A stretch of DNA of 64,000 nt, from the NCBI GenBank assembly GCA_028690035.1, contig JAQVCA010000004.1:124001-188000 (forward strand). The letters run 5' to 3'. The notes beneath the pieces are model-generated. The model had not been told where the DNA came from and ran no database searches. It saw only the letters and a list, made by a program, of their open reading frames with translations. This stretch comes from Comamonas sp. (GTDB lineage: Bacteria; Pseudomonadota; Gammaproteobacteria; Burkholderiales; Burkholderiaceae_C). A program made the translations under genes and the position numbers. Shown here in pieces: positions 17,181 to 50,548 of the stretch (the stretch's first letter is position 1; every line of letters starts with the position of its first letter).

Positions 17181-19334
17181 ATGACCTCCAAAAAATGGGC
17201 CGAAACGGCCCTTGCGGCGTTCGATGCCACCGTCAGCGCCACCCCGGGGCTGCGCACCCGCCCCGGCCAGCGCGCCATGGCCACCCTGGTCGCAGACACC
17301 CTGGCCGCTGCCGAGCTGGGTAAAACCGAAGAAGGCCAAGCGGTGCCCGCCCCTGCCGTGGCGGTCATCCAAGCTGGTACGGGCGTGGGCAAATCCTTGG
17401 CCTACAGCGCCCCGGCCATTGCCCTGGCGTTGGAACGTGGCACGCGGGTGCTGATTTCCACCGCCACCGTGGCGCTGCAGGAACAGCTGGTACACAAAGA
17501 CCTGCCCGCGCTGGCGGCGCAGCTGCCCACGCCGTTTCGCTACGCCCTGGCCAAGGGACGGGGGCGCTTTGTTTGCAAGCTCAAGCTGGAGCGTCTGGCC
17601 AGTAGCCACGCCCAGGAAGACATCGACGATTTGCTCGGCGACCTGGCCCCGGTACCTGCGCCCATCTCGACGGCGCAGCAGCAGGTGCGCCTCAAGCTCT
17701 ACACCAGCATGGCCGACGCGCTGGCGCGCAGCGTCTGGGATGGCGACCGCGACAGCCTGGAAACACCGCCCGAGTCCGAGGTCTGGGGCCCCATCGCCGC
17801 CGAAGGCAGCTCCTGCACCGGGCGCCACTGCCCAGCCTTTGGCAGCTGCAGTTACTTTGAGCGCCGCAAAGAGCTGGTCGCCGCCCAGGTGATTGTGGTG
17901 AACCACGATTTGCTGCTGTCCTCGCTGGGTGCGCGCTTGCTGCCCGAGCTGCACAGCAGCCTGCTCATCCTGGACGAGGCACACCACCTGCCGGCCACGG
18001 CGCTGTCTCAGTTTGCCTGCGGCATGGATTTGTCGCGCCTGCAGTGGCTGGACAAACTGGCCAGCCGGGCGCTGCGCATCGGGCAATTGCTGGAGGTGGC
18101 CGAGATCGCCGACATCCCCACGCACACCGGCGGCCTGCGCCAGCACCTGGGCCAGCTGGCCCAAGCCGTCACGCAGGAATATGGCGCCGCGCTGCAGGCT
18201 CCGGCCAGCCGCTTTGCCCCGGCGCGGGCACGCGTGCCAGGCGGCGTCCTGCCCGAGACCCTGCTGCCCCCCTTGGCCGCCGTCGCCAAGCATGCCAGCG
18301 GCCTGCTGGAGGCCTTGCGGGCGATTGCCAAGGCTCTGCGCACGGCCATCAAGGAGCAACCCGACGACGCGCAGCAGCTGGCGCAGCTCTACGCCCAGCT
18401 GGGCAGCCTGGCCCCGCGCCTGGAAGCGGTGTACGCCACCACCGAGCTGCTGCAGTACCAACCCAGCACCCCAGGTGCAGCGCCCGCTGCCAAATGGTTC
18501 ACCCAGGAAATGGATGGCGAATTCATTGCTCTGAGCGCACATGCCAGTCCGCTGTTGCCCGGCAGCACCTTGCGTCAGCAGCTGTGGAGCCAAGTGCGTG
18601 GCGCGGTGCTGACCTCAGCCACCTTGACCAGTGGTGGCGGTTTTGATTTTTTTCTGCGTGAAGTGGGTCTGGCCGATCTGCCCCAGGTACAGACCCTGGA
18701 GGTGGAAAGCCCTTTTCGCTACGCCGAGCAAGGCCGCCTGATCGCGCACCACACCCGGGCCGATCCACGCGAAGCCGCCGCCTTCACGCAAGAGATGGTG
18801 CACGCGCTGCTGCACGACCTGGCCCAGGTGCAGACCGGAGCGCTGGTGCTGTTCACCTCGCGCGAGCAAATGCGCCAAGCGGTCGATGCCCTGCCCAGCC
18901 ACCTGCACAGCCAAGTGCTGGTGCAAAACACCCTGCCACGCGCCAGCCTGCTGGCGACGCACCGCGAGCGCGTGCAGGCCGGGCAGGTGTCGATCATTTT
19001 TGGCATGCAGTCTTTTGGCGAAGGACTGGATCTGCCCGGGGACCTGTGCGCCAGCCTGTTCATCACCAAACTGCCTTTTGCGCCCCCCGACGACCCGGTG
19101 GGCGAAGCCCGTGCCGACTGGCTGCGCAGCAGCGGGCGCAATCCCTTCAATGACCTGGTGGTACCCGCCACCGCCATCCGTCTGGCGCAGTGGATGGGCA
19201 GAGCCATCCGCACCGAACACGACCATGCGCAGGTCGTGTGTTACGACCGGCGTTTGCTGCAAACCAGCTATGGCCAGCAGTTGTGCAAAAGTCTGCCACC
19301 CTTTGCCATCGAAAAACGTTTTTCATCCTCTTGA
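17181..19334 (+). CDS. dinG: ATP-dependent DNA helicase DinG
   Basis: IQAGTGVGKSLAYSAPAI Walker A; LLILDEAHHLP; Fe-S Cys region; FGMQSFGEGLDLPGD; QWMGRAIRTEHD. Confidence 0.93.
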   Translation: MTSKKWAETALAAFDATVSATPGLRTRPGQRAMATLVADTLAAAELGKTEEGQAVPAPAVAVIQAGTGVGKSLAYSAPAIALALERGTRVLISTATVALQEQLVHKDLPALAAQLPTPFRYALAKGRGRFVCKLKLERLASSHAQEDIDDLLGDLAPVPAPISTAQQQVRLKLYTSMADALARSVWDGDRDSLETPPESEVWGPIAAEGSSCTGRHCPAFGSCSYFERRKELVAAQVIVVNHDLLLSSLGARLLPELHSSLLILDEAHHLPATALSQFACGMDLSRLQWLDKLASRALRIGQLLEVAEIADIPTHTGGLRQHLGQLAQAVTQEYGAALQAPASRFAPARARVPGGVLPETLLPPLAAVAKHASGLLEALRAIAKALRTAIKEQPDDAQQLAQLYAQLGSLAPRLEAVYATTELLQYQPSTPGAAPAAKWFTQEMDGEFIALSAHASPLLPGSTLRQQLWSQVRGAVLTSATLTSGGGFDFFLREVGLADLPQVQTLEVESPFRYAEQGRLIAHHTRADPREAAAFTQEMVHALLHDLAQVQTGALVLFTSREQMRQAVDALPSHLHSQVLVQNTLPRASLLATHRERVQAGQVSIIFGMQSFGEGLDLPGDLCASLFITKLPFAPPDDPVGEARADWLRSSGRNPFNDLVVPATAIRLAQWMGRAIRTEHDHAQVVCYDRRLLQTSYGQQLCKSLPPFAIEKRFSSS

Positions 19335-20170
19335 GGGCTGCATGCCAGCCCTGCTACTGCATGGGCTAAAAACTCCTAAATAAATAGCTGTAAGCGCAGC
19401 ACTGTCGTGCGTTTTTTCTATTTTTTTATGAAAAATCTATCCCTGTTTTTACGCCGCTGGGTGTCTGGGGTTGTTCTTTGTCAGCACTGTGGTTTTTTGT
19501 TTAAAGTTTTTATAAAAAATAGTAGTGGTTAGTAAACGTGGCATTTCGCTGTGGATAAGAATTTTTCATGTGCAAAGTCAAAGGTTTGACACATGAAAAA
19601 GCTTGTGGGCAGCAGGCCGAACAACCAAAAACATGGATGGGCACAAGTTGGCGCCATCCATTTTTTTTGTGGATAAGTGGTTTTTTTGTTGCCGGTTGGA
19701 CACAGGCGGTTGAGCGGTTTTTTGGGGAAATTTGCTAAACAAGTTTTTGTTTTTGCATCACTTTTTTGAAAAAATGATGCTGTGCATAACTTTTCTTCTG
19801 GGCTTTTTAGCGTGTACCGCGCACATGCACACATCGCGCCTTACGGATCAAACATCATTTTGGAAACGTTCACCACCATGGCCACTTGTTCTTTAACTTT
19901 GTCTTTTTAAATAGTAGTAATAGTAAGCCTACCGCTGTGTTGTGGATAATTGAAAATTTGTTTTCAAAACAATAACTTAAACATGAATTACTGTTGTGGG
20001 ACAAACTATGCACAGTGGCAAGTGCATTGGGGGTAACTTTCTGAAATACCCACGCCCTGTGGATAAAAGAATTTTTTGATTTGTTTTTTCCACAAAGTTA
20101 TCTACAGCGCTGGACCGGTGCTGGCGGGCGTGTGCACCGATCGCAGACATAAAAAAACAGACCCGAAGGT
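19335..20170. other. oriC: Candidate chromosomal replication origin (oriC-like) region
   Basis: AT-rich intergenic; exact DnaA boxes (TGTGGATAA/TGTGCATAA) at 19550-19558, 19668-19676, 19781-19789, 19941-19949, 20058-20066; near-matches at 20006-20014 and 20098-20106; TAG-repeat tracts at 19520-19536 and 19912-19926, each 13-14 bp from a box. Confidence 0.75.
19384..19400 (+). repeat. Palindromic repeat family copy C, left-end fragment
   Basis: ATAGCTGTAAGCGC identical 14-mer to the left end of copy E (28328). Confidence 0.6.
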
Positions 20171-20175
20171 CTGTT
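20152..20175 (-). terminator. Terminator of the Spy/CpxP-like gene
   Basis: Minus strand ACAGACC-TTCG-GGTCTGT followed by TTTTTT. Confidence 0.8.
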
Positions 20176-20206
20176 GTTTGGTGGGGAAACTCTGCGAATC
20201 GGAAGT

Positions 20207-20707
20207 TCAGAAATGGCGTCCATGCATGTGCATGTGCATTTTGCGGTGACCTGTTGTTGGCAGGCTGTCGAACGCTTTTTGCTGGGCAGCGTTCAAGCTG
20301 TTGTAAAAGGTGCGTGTGGCTTGGTCGCGTTGCTCGGCGTCAGCGTGGTGTTGTTGGCGCATTTGGGCTTGGGCATCCAGGCGCTGCAAGGTGTTCATGG
20401 CCTGCCAGTCGGTCTTGGCGACCAGTGCCATATGCCGGGGGTGGCTGTGGACGCTGGTCACATAGGTCTGCCAGGCGGCTTGCTGCTCGGGCTGGAGTTG
20501 CAAAAGGTTTTTCATGCGTTCCAAGTGCTGTGCCTGCTTGTTTTCGTGGCGCTGCTGGTTGTCTTGCGCGCGCTCGGTCATCCGGCCATGCTGCATAGGG
20601 GAGGGGGTCGGTGCCGGCACTTCAGCCCAGACCGCGGTGCTGGCCATTGCGCTGCCGACAGCAGCCCATGCGGCCCAGCGCGACAAAGAGGTGGTGAGGC
20701 GGTTCAT
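20207..20707 (-). CDS. Spy/CpxP-like periplasmic protein (LTXXQ-type), His/Met-rich C-terminus
   Basis: Signal peptide; LLQLQPEQQAAWQTYV and LNAAQQKAFDSLP repeats; MHMHMHGRHF tail. Confidence 0.65.
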   Translation of the reverse strand: MNRLTTSLSRWAAWAAVGSAMASTAVWAEVPAPTPSPMQHGRMTERAQDNQQRHENKQAQHLERMKNLLQLQPEQQAAWQTYVTSVHSHPRHMALVAKTDWQAMNTLQRLDAQAQMRQQHHADAEQRDQATRTFYNSLNAAQQKAFDSLPTTGHRKMHMHMHGRHF

Positions 20708-20880: not shown

Positions 20881-20901
20881 GGTTTTTTTAAAAGGGTGTT
20901 C

Positions 20902-21924
20902 ATGTTCAAGAATCTGATCGTGTACCGCATCGACCCAGCTTGGCGCTGCAGTCTGCAAGATTTGGAGCAGGCGCTGCAAGCGGCCCCGTTTTTACCTTGT
21001 GCGGCGACCCAGGCCGAATCTGCAGGGTGGGTGCCGCCCCGTGGGCAGGCGCATGGGGCGTTGGTGGAAAGTGTCGGGGGACAGTGGATCCTGCGTTACC
21101 AGCAAGAAAGCCGACTGTTGCCTGCCAGCGTGGTGCAGCAGCGTGTACAGGAAAAATGCGCCGCCATTGAGCGTGAGTCCGGGCGCAAACCCGGTAAAAA
21201 AGAGCAGCGTGACCTGAAAGAGGAGGCGCGTCTGGATTTGCTGCCGCAGGCCTTTACCCGGCACAGCGGGGTTTGGGTGTGGATCGATCCGCAGGCGCAT
21301 TGGTTGGTGCTGGATGCCAGCGCACAGGGTAAGGCCGATGCGGTGGTCAGCCTGCTGGTCGAGCATGTGCCGGGCTTGGCGGTGGCCTTGGTGGATACGG
21401 CCATGGGCCCACAGGCCGCAATGGCGCAGTGGCTACTGACGCATGAGGCCCCGGCAGGGTTCAGCATCGATCAGGAGTGCGAGCTCAAGGCCAGCGACGA
21501 TTCCAAGGCCGTGGTGCGCTACGCGCGCCATCCGTTGGATATCGACGAAGTGCGCCAGCATGTGCAGGCGGGCAAGCTGCCCAGCAAGCTGGCTTTGACT
21601 TGGGATGGACGCGTGGGCTTTTTGCTGACCGAAGCGTTGCAGCTGAAAAAACTCAGCCTGCTGGATACCGTGCTGGATGCCAGCGCGGGCGGCACGCAGG
21701 CCGAGGAGGGCTTCGATACCGATGTGGCCCTGATCACCGCAGAGCTGGCACTGTTGTTGCCTGACCTCTTGGACGCCTTGGGTGGCGAGGCGTCCACTCT
21801 GGCGGCCAGAGCGCCAGCCACGGGCAGCGGGTTGCAGGCGAGGGCACCAGCGACCGGCACGGGCACCATCACCGGCCCCCGCCAGGCGCCTGTCGATAGC
21901 GCCCCCGACGAAGCGCCTTTTTAG
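20902..21924 (+). CDS. rdgC: Recombination-associated protein RdgC
   Basis: MFKNLIVYRI start, ...ESRLLPASVVQQRVQEK, GRKPGKKEQRDLKEEARLDLLPQAF, WIDPQAHWLVLDASAQGKADAVVSLL. Confidence 0.95.
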   Translation: MFKNLIVYRIDPAWRCSLQDLEQALQAAPFLPCAATQAESAGWVPPRGQAHGALVESVGGQWILRYQQESRLLPASVVQQRVQEKCAAIERESGRKPGKKEQRDLKEEARLDLLPQAFTRHSGVWVWIDPQAHWLVLDASAQGKADAVVSLLVEHVPGLAVALVDTAMGPQAAMAQWLLTHEAPAGFSIDQECELKASDDSKAVVRYARHPLDIDEVRQHVQAGKLPSKLALTWDGRVGFLLTEALQLKKLSLLDTVLDASAGGTQAEEGFDTDVALITAELALLLPDLLDALGGEASTLAARAPATGSGLQARAPATGTGTITGPRQAPVDSAPDEAPF

Positions 21925-24566: not shown

Positions 24567-24803
24567 GGCAATAGAACACAAAGAGTGGAACAAGGAGGGC
24601 TATGGTAGTGCGGAAGTCATCGCTGTGTGTGGGGTGTGCCCATCGCACGATGGCCCTGGCTTCGGGGCGGCCCAGCACATGCGATGCAAAAGAATGGGAA
24701 AATTTAAAGTTTTCTGTGCGTTATTGCTGCTGCACATCCTTCTTTTTTCGCCGCAGCGGGTGCTGCAGGCGGTGTGCCAGTCCTGCGCTGGAGTCCCAAA
24801 ATC

Positions 24804-26777
24804 ATGCTGTACCCCCAAGAATTTGACGTCATTGTGGTTGGCGGTGGCCATGCTGGCACTGAAGCCGCACTGGCCGCTGCGCGCATGGGTTGCAAAACCC
24901 TGCTGCTGACCCACAACATAGAAACCCTGGGGCAGATGAGCTGCAACCCATCCATCGGTGGCATTGGCAAAGGCCATTTGACCAAGGAGGTCGATGCCAT
25001 GGGCGGTGCCATGGCACTGGCGACCGATAAAGGCGGCATTCAGTTCCGGATTTTGAACAGCTCCAAAGGCCCCGCTGTGCGCGCCACGCGTGCGCAGGCC
25101 GACCGCATTCTGTACAAGGCCGCCATCCGGGAGATGCTGGAGAACCAGCCCAATTTGTGGCTGTTCCAGCAAGCGGTGGACGACTTGATGGTCGAAGGCG
25201 ACCGCGTGGTGGGTGCCGTCACGCAAATTGGCATCCAGTTTCGTGCGCGTGCCGTGGTGCTCACCGCAGGGACGTTCCTGGACGGCAAGATCCACGTGGG
25301 TTTGAGCAACCACGAAGGGGGGCGCGCAGGCGATCCGCCATCGCAGCGCCTGTCGCAACGCCTTAAAGAATTGCAACTGCCGCAAGGGCGCCTCAAGACC
25401 GGCACCCCGCCGCGCATCGATGGCCGCAGCATCGACTTCAGCCAATGCACCGAGCAGCCTGGCGATGGCATGCCCGGTGGTGCCAACGAAGGCGTGGTGC
25501 CGGTGTTCAGCTACCGGGGCCATGCCAGCATGCACCCGCGCCAAATGCCGTGCTGGGTGACGCACACCAACCAGCGTACGCACGACATCATCCGCAGCGG
25601 CTTTGACCGCAGCCCCATGTTCACCGGCAAGATCGAAGGCGTGGGCCCGCGCTACTGCCCCAGCGTGGAAGACAAGATCAACCGCTTTGCGGACAAAGAC
25701 AGCCACCAGATCTTTCTGGAACCCGAAGGCCTGACCACCCACGAGTTCTACCCCAACGGCATCTCCACCAGCTTGCCGTTCGATATTCAGTACGCGCTGG
25801 TGCGCTCGATCAAGGGTCTGGAAAACGCGCACATCTTGCGTCCCGGCTACGCCATTGAGTACGACTACTTTGACCCCCGCTCCTTAAAGAGCAGCTTTGA
25901 AACACGCCAAATCCAAGGACTGTTTTTTGCCGGGCAGATCAACGGCACCACGGGCTACGAAGAAGCAGCGGCCCAAGGCCTGTTTGCCGGTATCAACGCC
26001 GGGTTGCAGGTGCGTGGTCTGGGGCCGTGGGTGCCGCGCCGCGATGAGGCCTATCTGGGCGTGTTGATTGACGACCTCATCACCAAAGGCGTGACCGAGC
26101 CGTACCGCATGTTCACCAGCCGCGCGGAGTTCCGCCTGCAGCTGCGCGAAGACAACGCCGATATGCGCCTGACAGAAATTGGCCGCCAGTTGGGCGTGGT
26201 GGACGATGCCCATTGGGATGTGTTCAACCGCAAGCGCGACGCGGTTTCACGTGAAACAGAGCGTTTGAAGGCCACCTGGGTCAACCCACGCAATTTGCCG
26301 CAAGAAGAAGCGCAACGCGTGCTGGGCAAAGGCATCGAGCACGAGTACAACCTGTTTGACCTGCTGCGCCGTCCGGGCGTGGAGTACGGCAACTTGGTGG
26401 GCATGGACGGCGGTAAATACGCCAGCAGCGATGTTTCACGTGAAACGCTGGGCGATCTGCATGCCGATGTGGTGGAGCAAGTGGAGATTGCCGCCAAGTA
26501 CTCGGGCTACATCGACCGCCAAAAAGAAGAAGTGCAGCGCGCGGCCTACTACGAGAATTTGCAGCTGCCTGCCGATCTGGACTACAGCAAGGTCACCGCG
26601 CTGTCGATTGAAGTGCGCCAGAAGCTGGAAAAGCATCGCCCAGAAACACTGGGTCAGGCTTCGCGCATTTCGGGCGTGACGCCAGCGGCGATATCGCTGC
26701 TGATGATTCACCTGAAAAAAGGCGGCTTCAAAGGCTTTGCCACCAAGCCCGCCGCTGCCCAGCAGGAGCAGGCATGA
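24804..26777 (+). CDS. mnmG: tRNA uridine-5-carboxymethylaminomethyl(34) synthesis enzyme MnmG
   Basis: [48 protein letters not shown]. Confidence 0.98.
26243..26258. other. parS: parS-like site in mnmG
   Basis: GGTTTCACGTGAAACA, 15/16 to TGTTTCACGTGAAACA. Confidence 0.8.
26432..26447. other. parS: parS-like site in mnmG
   Basis: TGTTTCACGTGAAACG, 15/16. Confidence 0.8.
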
Positions 26778-27451
26778 GCACCGCGCTGAACGTGGAAGAG
26801 CTGCGCCCCGGTTTGCTGCAAGGCATACAAGCGCTGGAGCTGCAATTGGACGCTGCCCAAGTGCAGCGCCTGCTGCAGTTCATGGAGCTGCTGCACAAGT
26901 GGAACAAGGTCTACAACCTGACGGCGCTGCGCAATCCGCAGGAAATGCTCACGCACCACATGCTCGATAGCCTGGCGGCGGTGCCGCCGCTGCACCGCCA
27001 TCTGGCCAGCTTACCTGCTGGGCAGCCGCTGCGTCAGCTGGATGTCGGTTCGGGCGGCGGCTTGCCGGGGGTAGTGTTTGCCATTTGCTGCCCGCAGCTG
27101 CAGATCGATTGTGTGGATACCGTGGCCAAAAAAGCCGCCTTTATCCAGCAGGTGGCGGCCAGCTTGCAACTGCCCAACCTGCGCGGCATCCACGCGCGCG
27201 TGGAGTCGCTGCAGCAGCCTTACGCCATCGTGAGCTGCCGGGCGTTTGCCTCGCTGGTCGATTTCACCACCTGGTCGCGCGCCGCGCTGGCGCCCGAGGG
27301 CGTGTGGCTGGCGATGAAGGGCAAGCACCCGCAAGAGGAAATGGACGCTTTGGCCGCCGACCAGGTGCAGGTGTTTCACGTGGAACCATTGCACGTCCCT
27401 GGTCTGGATGCCGAGCGCTGCATCGTCTGGATGCGCCCGGGCACACACTGA
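26774..27451 (+). CDS. rsmG: 16S rRNA (guanine527-N7)-methyltransferase RsmG
   Basis: [42 protein letters not shown]. Confidence 0.97.
27372..27387. other. parS: parS-like site in rsmG
   Basis: TGTTTCACGTGGAACC. Confidence 0.75.
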
Positions 27452-27530
27452 CACACTGGCACAGCCCAGGGCCGTCCAGCGACTGGCATACACTCAAGAC
27501 CATCTCTTACCCAGGATTGCAAAGTCTGTC

Positions 27531-28301
27531 ATGGCCAAAATTTTCTGTATTGCCAATCAAAAAGGTGGTGTGGGCAAAACCACCACCGCAGTCAATTTGG
27601 CCGCTGCGCTGGCGAAAGTGGGCCAGCGCGTGCTGCTGGTGGACTTGGATCCCCAGGGCAATGCCACCATGGGCGCTGGGGTGGACAAGCGCGCGCTGGC
27701 GCTGTCCGTGTACGACGTGCTGCTCGAATCGGCCAGTGTGCGTGAAGCGGTGGTGGCCTCGGAGCAGTGCGGTTTTGCTGTGCTGGGTGCCAACCGCGAA
27801 CTCAGCGGTGCAGAAATCGAACTGGTGGCACTGGAACGGCGCACCGAGCGCCTCAAAAGCGCCCTGCAAGCCGTCGCCGCCGATTTTGATTTTGTGCTCA
27901 TCGACTGCCCGCCCAGTTTGTCTATGCTGACACTGAACGGCCTGTGCGCAGCGCATGGCGTTATCGTGCCCATGCAGTGCGAGTACTTTGCGCTGGAAGG
28001 GGTGACCGATCTGGTCAACACCATCAAGCAGGTGCGTGCCAATATGAACCCGGATTTGCAAATCATTGGCCTGCTGCGCGTGATGTTCGATCCGCGCACC
28101 ACCTTGCAGCAGCAGGTCAGCGATCAGTTGCATGAGCACTTTGCCGGTCAGGTGTTCGACACCGTGATCCCGCGCAACGTGCGTCTGGCTGAAGCGCCCA
28201 GCTACGGGCTGCCGGGGGTGGTGTTCGATCCATCGGCCAAGGGCAGCAAGGCCTTTGTGCAGTTTGCGCAAGAGATGGTGCAGCGCGTGCAAAGCATGTA
28301 G
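27531..28301 (+). CDS. parA: Chromosome partitioning ATPase ParA
   Basis: MAKIFCIANQKGGVGKTTTAVNLAAALA; LVDLDPQGNATMGAG; LIDCPPSLSMLTLNGL. Confidence 0.97.
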   Translation: MAKIFCIANQKGGVGKTTTAVNLAAALAKVGQRVLLVDLDPQGNATMGAGVDKRALALSVYDVLLESASVREAVVASEQCGFAVLGANRELSGAEIELVALERRTERLKSALQAVAADFDFVLIDCPPSLSMLTLNGLCAAHGVIVPMQCEYFALEGVTDLVNTIKQVRANMNPDLQIIGLLRVMFDPRTTLQQQVSDQLHEHFAGQVFDTVIPRNVRLAEAPSYGLPGVVFDPSAKGSKAFVQFAQEMVQRVQSM

Positions 28302-28407: not shown

Positions 28408-29002
28408 GAAAAAAATAGAAGCGCCCGAGGCCAGCCCCGATATGGGCTGCCATGTGCTGCTGCTGCCCGGCTGGCGCAACTCCGATGCGCAGCATTGGCA
28501 AAGTCGCTGGGAACAGCGCTATGGCTACGAGCGCGTGGAGCAGCATGAATGGCTGCACCCGCTGCGTGGCGACTGGACCACGCGCCTGCAAGATGCCGTG
28601 CTGGACCACCCGCGCCCCGTGGTGCTGGTGGCGCACAGCCTGGGCTGCGTCCTGACCGCCTGGTGGGCCGCCCACGCCCCCAAGGTGGCCCTGGCCAAGG
28701 TGCGTGCCGCCTTGCTGGTGGCGCCCGGTGATGTGGATCGTCCCGGCGTGCATCCGCAACTGGCGCGCTGGGCGCCGGTGGCGCTGGAGCCGCTGCCGTT
28801 TCCCAGCATCGTGGTGGGCAGCCACAACGACCCGTATTGCAGCCTGGAGCGGGCCTGGTTCTTTGCCCAGTCCTGGGGCGCGCGCTGGGTGGATGCGGGC
28901 CACGCCGGACACATCAACAGCGCCAGCCACCTGGGCGACTGGGAGGCCGGACATGCTTTGTTGTTTGATTTGATGAAGGACACTGCCCATGGCAACCGCT
29001 AA
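28406..29002 (+). CDS. RBBP9/YdeN-family alpha/beta hydrolase
   Basis: VLLLPGWRNSDAQHWQSRWE, LVAHSLGCVLTAWW nucleophile elbow, DAGHAGHINSASHLGDW; start could be 28442 instead. Confidence 0.9.
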   Translation: MKKIEAPEASPDMGCHVLLLPGWRNSDAQHWQSRWEQRYGYERVEQHEWLHPLRGDWTTRLQDAVLDHPRPVVLVAHSLGCVLTAWWAAHAPKVALAKVRAALLVAPGDVDRPGVHPQLARWAPVALEPLPFPSIVVGSHNDPYCSLERAWFFAQSWGARWVDAGHAGHINSASHLGDWEAGHALLFDLMKDTAHGNR

Positions 29003-29906
29003 ACCCAAGGGCTTGGGGCGTGGCCTGGAAGCCTTGCTTGGCCCCAAAGTCAGCGAAACCGCCTCCAACGCCGCCGATCTGCCCAGCGCCCTGGCGCTGG
29101 AGCAGTTGGTGCCCGGCCAGTACCAGCCGCGCACCCATATGGACGAGGGTGCGCTCTACGAGCTGGCCAACAGCATCCAGGCACAGGGCATCATGCAGCC
29201 GATTTTGGTGCGCCGCTTAAGTCGGGGCGAGCACGCGGGCAAGTACGAAATCATTGCCGGTGAGCGCCGCTTTCGCGCCGCCCGCATTGCCGGGCTGACG
29301 CAGGTGCCCGTGCTGGTGCGCGATGTGGCCGATGAGGCTGCTGCCGCCATGGCGCTGATTGAAAACATCCAGCGCGAAGACCTCAACCCTCTGGAAGAAG
29401 CCCAGGGCCTGCAACGCCTGGTGCAAGAGTTTGGCCACACGCACGAGCAGGCGGCCACGGCTGTGGGGCGCAGTCGCTCGGCGGCCAGCAACCTGCTGCG
29501 GCTGCTGCAGCTGGCGCCACCAGTGCAGACCATGCTTATGGCTGGCGACCTGGACATGGGCCACGCGCGTGCGCTGCTCAGTCTGGACAAGGCCGAGCAG
29601 ATCAATGCGGCCAACCAGGTGGTGGCACGCAAGCTGTCGGTGCGTGAGACCGAGGCGCTGGTCAAAAAACAGCTGGCTGAGGCGGTGGGGGCAGAACGCA
29701 AGTCGGCCAGCATGCCTGCCAAGACGGGCGATGTGCTGCGCGTGGAAGAAGAACTCTCTGACCTGCTCATGGCGCAGGTGGAAGTGCGCCTGAAAAAACG
29801 CAGCCAGCGCCACGGCAAAGAAGATGCTGTGGGCGAGCTGGCGATCCAGTTTGGCTCGCTGGATGCCCTGAATGGCTTGATTGAACGTTTGCGTCGGTGT
29901 CCATAG
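28989..29906 (+). CDS. parB: Chromosome partitioning protein ParB
   Basis: KGLGRGLEALLG; QYQPRTHMDEGALYELANSIQAQGIMQPILVR; GERRFRAARIAGL; ALIENIQREDLNPLEEA. Confidence 0.97.
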   Translation: MATAKPKGLGRGLEALLGPKVSETASNAADLPSALALEQLVPGQYQPRTHMDEGALYELANSIQAQGIMQPILVRRLSRGEHAGKYEIIAGERRFRAARIAGLTQVPVLVRDVADEAAAAMALIENIQREDLNPLEEAQGLQRLVQEFGHTHEQAATAVGRSRSAASNLLRLLQLAPPVQTMLMAGDLDMGHARALLSLDKAEQINAANQVVARKLSVRETEALVKKQLAEAVGAERKSASMPAKTGDVLRVEEELSDLLMAQVEVRLKKRSQRHGKEDAVGELAIQFGSLDALNGLIERLRRCP

Positions 29907-32542: not shown

Positions 32543-32558
32543 TGTTTCACGTGAAACA
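32543..32558. other. parS: parS site (exact consensus match)
   Basis: TGTTTCACGTGAAACA, 16/16, upstream of the MFS gene. Confidence 0.88.
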
Positions 32559-40089: not shown

Positions 40090-41196
40090 TCAGCTCTGCC
40101 AGGCACTGCCACCGCTGGCCAGAGCCTGCAGCACCTGGGCGGTGTGCGCCCCGGCAGGGCCACTGGGGTTGATGGGGTAGGGCGCCGAGCCAAAGCGCGG
40201 GGCGGGGCTGGCCTGCAGGGTGCCACCGTCGTGGGCGTACACGCTGCGTGCTTGCAAATGGGGGTGCTGGGCGGCCGCCTGGGGGCTGAGCACGGCGGCA
40301 AAGCAGGCATCGCTGCCTTCCAGCAACGCCTGCCAGTGCGCTTGCGGGTGCTGCAGAAAGAGGGCTGCCAGCCGTGCGCGGCGCCGTGGCCAGGCACTGC
40401 GCTCCCACTGGTCGCCGGTGAATTCCGGGTCGTCCTGCAGGCCCAGCGTATGCAGCAGCAGTTGGTAGAACTGCGCCTCGATGGGGCCAATGGTGATGTG
40501 CTCGCCATCGGCGCAGACATAGGTGTCGTAAAACGGCGCGGTGGTGTGCAGGCTGGTGTCGCGTGTCTCGCCCACCAGGCCGGTGGCGCGCATGCTCAAC
40601 ATCAGGTTGAGCATGTGTGCAGCGCCATCGACGATGGCCGCATCGACCACGCAGCCCTGGCCCGTTGCGCGCGCTTGCAGCACGCCGCTGAGCACGCCGG
40701 TCATCAGGTACAGCGCGCCGCCGCCAATGTCGCCCAGCACGCCAAACGGGGGCACGGGGCGCGCATCGGCCGGGCTGCAGCCCCACATGGCCCCCGACAG
40801 CGCCGCGTAGTTGGCATCGTGCCCAGCGGTGTGCGCCAGCGGGCCGTGCTGGCCCCAGCCGGTCATGCGGCCATAGACCAGCGCGGGGTGGATGGCGTGG
40901 CACTCCTGCGGGCCCAGGCCCAGGCGCTCCATGCTGCCGGGGCGCATGCCTTCGATCAGCACATCGGTATCGCGCACCAGCTGCAGCGCCAGGGCGCGGC
41001 CCTCAGGGGTTTTCAGGTCGGTGAACACCGAGCGCTTGCCCCGGTTGAGCAGGTCGCCGGTGATGGGCGTGCCGCTGCTGGGGCGCACCAGGCTGATGAC
41101 ATCGGCGCCCAGATCGGCCAGATGCATGGCGCAAAACGGGCCGGGGCCCAGGCCACCGATCTCCAGGACGCGCAGACCTTGTAAAACTTTTTGCAT
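40090..41196 (-). CDS. CaiB/BaiF-family CoA transferase (alpha-methylacyl-CoA racemase-like)
   Basis: LRVLEIGGLGPGPFCAMHLADLGADVISLVRP; NRGKRSVFTDLKTPEGRALALQLV. Confidence 0.93.
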   Translation of the reverse strand: MQKVLQGLRVLEIGGLGPGPFCAMHLADLGADVISLVRPSSGTPITGDLLNRGKRSVFTDLKTPEGRALALQLVRDTDVLIEGMRPGSMERLGLGPQECHAIHPALVYGRMTGWGQHGPLAHTAGHDANYAALSGAMWGCSPADARPVPPFGVLGDIGGGALYLMTGVLSGVLQARATGQGCVVDAAIVDGAAHMLNLMLSMRATGLVGETRDTSLHTTAPFYDTYVCADGEHITIGPIEAQFYQLLLHTLGLQDDPEFTGDQWERSAWPRRRARLAALFLQHPQAHWQALLEGSDACFAAVLSPQAAAQHPHLQARSVYAHDGGTLQASPAPRFGSAPYPINPSGPAGAHTAQVLQALASGGSAWQS

Positions 41197-50531: not shown

Positions 50532-50548
50532 TTGGCACGGTCTGTGCA
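50532..50548 (+). promoter_or_regulatory. Sigma-54 (-24/-12) promoter of the phenol hydroxylase operon
   Basis: TTGGCACGGTCTGTGCA: GG (50534-50535) and GC (50546-50547), 12-bp spacing. Confidence 0.88.

Follow-up and report, generated by a model that had tools for sequence, protein, structure and literature searches.

The intergenic gap between dinG and an LTXXQ-family gene is identified, with a probability of roughly 0.94, as the chromosomal replication origin (oriC) of a Comamonas-like bacterium, uncoupled from dnaA and composed of two similar modules in the same orientation. The window, i.e., the whole stretch of 64,000 nucleotides that was analysed, corresponds to G000:C11:124001-188000 of a draft genome of 2.9 Mb in 22 contigs. 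The assignment follows from the GC skew, the conserved DnaA boxes, and the DnaA-trio modules; boxes, trios, low-stability stretches, conserved geometry, skew minimum, distance from dnaA, and parS-like sites were all computed from the DNA. A sequence-only reading had already proposed this gap as a candidate oriC, and the proposal is borne out by the skew minimum and by the conservation of the boxes near rdgC, although the two DnaA-trio elements and the conserved twin arrangement had escaped it. The gap, its borders, and its DnaA boxes are given below in window positions.

17181..19334, plus strand: dinG helicase gene, left neighbour (NF008729, 766 bits)
19335..20206, no strand: oriC region, about 0.9 kb without assigned genes, from dinG to the LTXXQ gene; skew minimum and box-density maximum of the contig
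about 19490-20110: core of the oriC region
19550..19558, minus strand: DnaA box A1, unwinding box of module A (exact match)
19668..19676, minus strand: DnaA box A2, 118 bp from A1 (exact match; spacing conserved)
19696..19704, plus strand: degenerate inverted box TTGGACACA of module A (2 mismatches, from sequence)
19781..19789, minus strand: middle DnaA box TTATGCACA (exact match)
19941..19949, minus strand: DnaA box B1, unwinding box of module B (exact match)
20006..20014, plus strand: near-match box CTATGCACA (1 mismatch)
20058..20066, minus strand: DnaA box B2, 117 bp from B1 (exact match; spacing conserved)
20086..20094, plus strand: near-match box TTTTCCACA (1 mismatch)
20098..20106, plus strand: inverted near-match box TTATCTACA, 40 bp from B2 (1 mismatch), alike in B-type modules of relatives
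20156..20175, minus strand: hairpin resembling a terminator, belonging to the LTXXQ gene and bordering the origin region on the right (sites of this kind are no more numerous there than in shuffles)
20207..20707, minus strand: LTXXQ-family (Spy/CpxP-like) gene, right neighbour (PF07813)

The five exact TTATNCACA boxes, obtained by a pattern count over the 64-kb window, all lie on the minus strand at 19550, 19668, 19781, 19941, and 20058, and shuffles of the whole 64 kb yield 0.47 on average and never more than 3; hence a cluster beyond chance occupies an intergenic region, as is expected of an oriC. Their number, shared orientation, and positions had been read correctly from the sequence, as had the near-matches at 20006 and 20098, which are real and, together with that at 20086, lie on the plus strand when one mismatch is allowed. 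With at most one mismatch, eight DnaA boxes fall in an 870-bp stretch, the top density in the 284-kb contig. The gap was rightly described as AT-rich and gene-free, having 58% AT while the contig has about 63% GC, and it contains two GATC sites only, so that there is no sign of SeqA/Dam control. An RNA element was considered, and no Rfam match was obtained in the gap; promoter and terminator counts there are not above shuffles. A sixth exact DnaA box of the window, TTATGCACA at 50543, is isolated and far from the cluster.

A basal unwinding system (BUS) has been defined as a box followed by a spacer no longer than 16, at least three trios of which CTA is the commonest, and AT-rich DNA (PMC8287927), and the trio rule calls for a middle A (T on the box strand). 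Two DnaA-trio elements, each made of a box, a 14-bp spacer, and CTA-type repeats, were found in the gap, the first of them imperfect; the modules A and B to which they belong have the same orientation and are 391 bp apart, with the following parts.

19494..19523, no strand: DNA-unwinding element A, AT-rich, low duplex stability (predicted stability third-lowest among 30-bp loci of the contig)
19517..19535, minus strand: DnaA-trio A, reading TTACTAACCACTACTATTT on the strand of the box, with a 4-base interruption in the run (scan for box, spacer of 14, and trio)
19576..19588, plus strand: IHF-like site of module A, AGTCAAAGGTTTG (1 mismatch, from sequence)
19892..19921, no strand: DNA-unwinding element B, AT-rich, low duplex stability (predicted stability ninth-lowest among 30-bp loci of the contig)
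19909..19926, minus strand: DnaA-trio B, reading TTACTATTACTACTATTT on the strand of the box, six trios without interruption (strict pattern match)
19967..19979, plus strand: IHF-like site of module B, AAACAATAACTTA (1 mismatch, from sequence)

On the strand of the box, 14 bases separate box 19941 from TTACTATTACTACTATTT, beyond which lies AT-rich DNA, and module B thus agrees with the BUS rule (spacer of 14, six trios). Box 19550 is likewise followed by 14 bases and then by TTACTAACCACTACTATTTTTTATAAAA, a run broken after two trios; module A, with the same spacer, therefore falls outside the strict rule. The low-stability stretches at 19494 and 19892, ranked among separate 30-bp loci of the 284-kb contig, adjoin trio A and trio B on the far side, i.e., an AT-rich element of low stability lies beside the boxes as in an oriC. 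Trio B in the gap is the sole match of the strict box-spacer-trio pattern in the 2.9-Mb genome, and the reversed control of that pattern gave one match in 80 genomes. When 2.14 Mb of DNA from the own genome and its relatives was scanned with a looser pattern, the matches fell at origin clusters, with one weak stray match within the named loci.

The position and structure of these modules are conserved in relatives, where the boxes are kept next to rdgC, as the sequence-only reading would have it for close relatives of a true origin. The strict trio pattern occurs in 14 of 17 genomes of the genus and lies inside the box cluster wherever the origin region was located. Among 90 collected module occurrences, in which some genomes are counted twice, once by G handle and once by L locus, 89 have a second same-orientation box 117-119 bp upstream of the unwinding box, a spacing that was not part of the trio scan's query. 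Most modules also carry an inverted box, at 147 bp in the A type or 157-159 bp in the B type, and an IHF-like site is found at -31 in 19 of the 32 modules of type A and 23 of the 29 of type B. The window modules share these parts (second box, IHF-like site, and an inverted partner that is degenerate at A2); for instance, TTGGACACA lies 28 bp from A2 as in the A-type modules of relatives, and the middle box has a counterpart in several of them, 222-235 bp from A1. Within the family, the module recurs with the same rigid spacing in Comamonas, Delftia, and further genera. At 40 loci it is present twice in a single orientation, the copies being 367-463 bp apart at 37 of these; in three other genera (G098, G045, and G055) the modules are 4.2, 9.2, and 11.5 kb apart, respectively, with rdgC between them, and their positions are as follows.

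G098: modules at 394692 and 398878, flanking rdgC
G045: modules at 40109 and 49309, flanking rdgC
G055: modules at 2495910 and 2507367, flanking rdgC

Such pairs resemble a bipartite origin split by rdgC, not by dnaA. The Comamonas relatives G008, G014, G018, and G020 have a single trio, and hence two trios are not obligatory. Modules A and B within a species are on average 45% identical, the same module between species 49-51%, and shuffles 27%, the values above shuffle level being raised by the motifs that were used to find the modules; this modest signal, read from sequence comparison, points to a duplication of some age and to distinct A and B types. A 49-bp box-pair pattern matched 6 of 61 genera, its weakness arising because the boxes vary by one base, and the trio pattern performs better. 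In G018, nine exact boxes without trios lie about 0.9 kb past the main group (C1:501257-501835), possibly an extra DnaA-binding array, and similar groups occur in G014 and G020.

From this layout we infer how the origin would fire, through the binding of DnaA and IHF, melting, helicase loading, and the use of both modules. In each module, DnaA would bind A1 or B1, and IHF would probably bend the adjacent DNA, bringing in A2 or B2, 117-118 bp off, with the inverted partner; DnaA would spread across the 14-bp spacer onto the DnaA-trio strand and melt the AT-rich stretch beyond the trio, on the dinG side, at which DnaB helicase would be loaded. ParB on parS, 6-12.5 kb away, would segregate the origin copies. 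Whether DnaA opens both of these modules, with their common orientation and fixed geometry, as a twin origin is a tentative proposition, to which we give somewhat less than even odds. The same proposition might extend, at odds still short of even, to, for example, one helicase per module or alternate opening; the dual-module plan may, as a conjecture of like standing, have persisted in a large part of the family as dnaA moved off; and rdgC could, just as tentatively, have come between the halves in some genera. Within the oriC reading there is an even chance that one module opens and the other is an extra DnaA-loading or timing site, as would accord with the broken trio A of the window, with the single trio of G008, G014, G018, and G020, and with B. 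subtilis and Helicobacter pylori, in which the unwinding element lies in one of two parts (PMC8235120); what speaks against it is the retention, in about 40 loci, of both trios, nearly always with the 14-bp spacing and AT-rich DNA.

The assignment of the gap to oriC is further carried by the GC skew, which for the own genome was drawn for the 284-kb contig C11 of the 22-contig draft. The cumulative minimum falls at 143455 of C11 (window 19455), inside the gap; the skew descends from about 32 kb to that point with no lasting turn at dnaA, which lies inside one arm. The gene dnaA was located at C11:50849, ahead of dnaN and gyrB; this is on the same contig as the box cluster and 93 kb to its left, so the gap does not have the location of a dnaA-linked oriC. 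The absence of dnaA, dnaN, and gyrB from the window, pointed out in the sequence-only reading, holds for the window proteins examined, and its notion of an oriC uncoupled from dnaA is upheld by this distance and by a skew that turns at the gap and not at dnaA.

The minima of relatives follow the cluster as well. In G008, the minimum is at 129621 and the cluster at 127710-129283, with dnaA at 641 (129 kb away) and dinG at 4.36 Mb; in G018, the minimum is at 509411 and the cluster at 499862-501835, with dnaA at 685668 (185 kb away) and dinG at 611 kb. G018 is the one complete relative sampled genome-wide, and its coarse whole-chromosome sample is positive in one arm, which runs from the minimum to about 3.0 Mb, and largely negative after that. 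For G098, which belongs to a different genus, the corresponding positions are 389 kb for the minimum, 394.7 and 398.9 kb for the modules, and 134 kb for dnaA. In G001, G002, G004, G010, G014, G019, G041, and G044 the local minimum coincides with the box cluster or adjoins it, and in G098 and G062 the two are within 5-15 kb of each other, the distance from the boxes being 8-15 kb in G018 and G062; the comparison covered relatives other than G054 and G085 (genera without exact box pairs), and G045 over 20 kb. In complete relatives in which dnaA or dinG has moved away, cluster and minimum stay together near rdgC, mnmG, and par; it is thus with the replication switch and rdgC/mnmG that the cluster is associated, not with dnaA or dinG.

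These results bear on the alternative that the sequence-only reading had itself raised, a datA- or DARS-like locus for DnaA titration or recycling with the true origin elsewhere, e.g., at dnaA-dnaN. Boxes alone would fit such a locus, one exact and one near DnaA box are present upstream of dnaA, and one member of the family (G092) carries a trio element 205 bp past dnaA; nevertheless, the own contig and the relatives alike have their skew switch here and not at dnaA, melting, unlike titration, requires trio elements and low-stability stretches, and the looser scan found no trio element near dnaA in the own genome. A datA or DARS locus would consist of boxes without an unwinding element, off the skew minimum, a description that the gap does not answer, and titration is accordingly very improbable. 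Slightly less probable still are two active origins, one in the gap and a residual one at dnaA, as proposed for Ralstonia pickettii 12D of the same order (PMC4403523), for the dnaA promoter region keeps two boxes but has no skew minimum, box cluster, or trio in the own contig, G008, or G018.

The oriC assigned to the gap is accompanied downstream by the genes and sites listed below; mnmG-rsmG-parA-parB had been recognized in this order from the sequence, and all four are in place.

20896..21924, plus strand: rdgC (NF001463, 450 bits)
24774..26777, plus strand: mnmG (gidA) (TIGR00136)
26243..26258, plus strand: parS-like site (1 mismatch)
26432..26447, plus strand: parS-like site (1 mismatch)
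26774..27451, plus strand: rsmG (TIGR00138)
27372..27387, plus strand: parS-like site (2 mismatches)
27408..28301, plus strand: parA-like gene, start codon uncertain
28989..29906, plus strand: parB (PF17762, PF02195, PF23552)
32543..32558, plus strand: parS site (exact)

The parS-like sites and parAB are 6-12.5 kb from the cluster, and by synteny rdgC is the most constant origin neighbour among relatives. Sequence identity of the own dinG is 87% with the dinG of an uncultured Comamonas (L019) and 66-75% with those of other Comamonas and Delftia. The gene dinG was rejected as the defining neighbour of the origin, since G008, G014, and G018 keep rdgC and mnmG near it but have dinG elsewhere. The mnmG start is 4.7 kb from the gap, which is thus not of the E. 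coli type (adjacent to mnmG, many GATC sites); in G062, a box cluster lies directly upstream of mnmG.

An origin linked to dnaA-dnaN is the usual bacterial arrangement, and origins are usually sought beside dnaA. The gap resembles such an origin in having a DnaA-box cluster and a trio element, and the origin of G092 seems to be dnaA-linked itself, whereas the own dnaA-dnaN-gyrB is 93 kb off and lacks cluster and trio. A dnaA-distant oriC is already known from E. coli and Caulobacter, and hence the kind of origin described here is known; what appears new is the conserved twin-module architecture and not the origin itself. The E. coli oriC lies between mioC and mnmG/gidA and has an AT-rich melting stretch, with a box next to the unwinding element and an IHF site on the other side of that box. 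The gap is similar in being apart from dnaA, linked to mnmG, and furnished with a box, an IHF-like site, and an AT-rich stretch; it differs in its two same-orientation modules, its clear CTA-type trios, and its neighbours dinG, the LTXXQ gene, and rdgC. The E. coli oriC is separated from dnaA, and its DnaA-trios are weak (PMC8287927). With the BUS of Bacillus subtilis (boxes 6/7 and DnaA-trios), the gap shares the box, a spacer within the limit, CTA trios, and AT-rich DNA; unlike it, the gap has the element twice, a second box at 117-119 bp, an IHF-like site, and a distant dnaA. In the bipartite origins of B. subtilis and H. pylori, dnaA is the split gene and one part has the unwinding element (PMC8235120). 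The gap likewise has two DnaA-box groups, and those of G098, G055, and G045 flank rdgC; in contrast, each part in the window carries an unwinding element, the parts are 0.4 kb apart, and no gene lies between the modules, so that the window does not hold a bipartite oriC.

No report on a Comamonas oriC, or on an oriC with two trio modules in the same orientation, was found in a search confined to sources other than subscription papers and DoriC. A genome-wide trio survey kept by design one unwinding candidate per genome (PMC8287927), and a conserved pair would thus have escaped it. Since the assemblies G002, G004, G019, and G023 are numbered from dnaA, their origin is misplaced by tens to hundreds of kilobases. 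Twin modules at fixed spacing provide natural material on the loading of two helicases for bidirectional replication and also bear on how far initiation control depends on the position of the dnaA gene; moreover, the 14-bp spacer together with the 119-bp box spacing constitutes a specific search pattern for the origins of this family.

The distance between mnmG and dnaA is 4-13 kb in most other families sampled in the order and usually tens to hundreds of kilobases in the own family, in which the origin appears to have stayed with mnmG, par, and rdgC. The family is not uniform, as G092 seems to have a dnaA-linked origin, its trio element at C10:6646 lying 205 bp past the point where the dnaA match ends. 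In another family of the order, G031 has strict trio elements at C1:5138137 and 5138528, spaced by 391 bp; mnmG is about 11 kb off and dnaA, across the start of the record, about 60 kb. G086 has a single trio element at C1:1785711, 162 kb from mnmG and 460 kb from dnaA.
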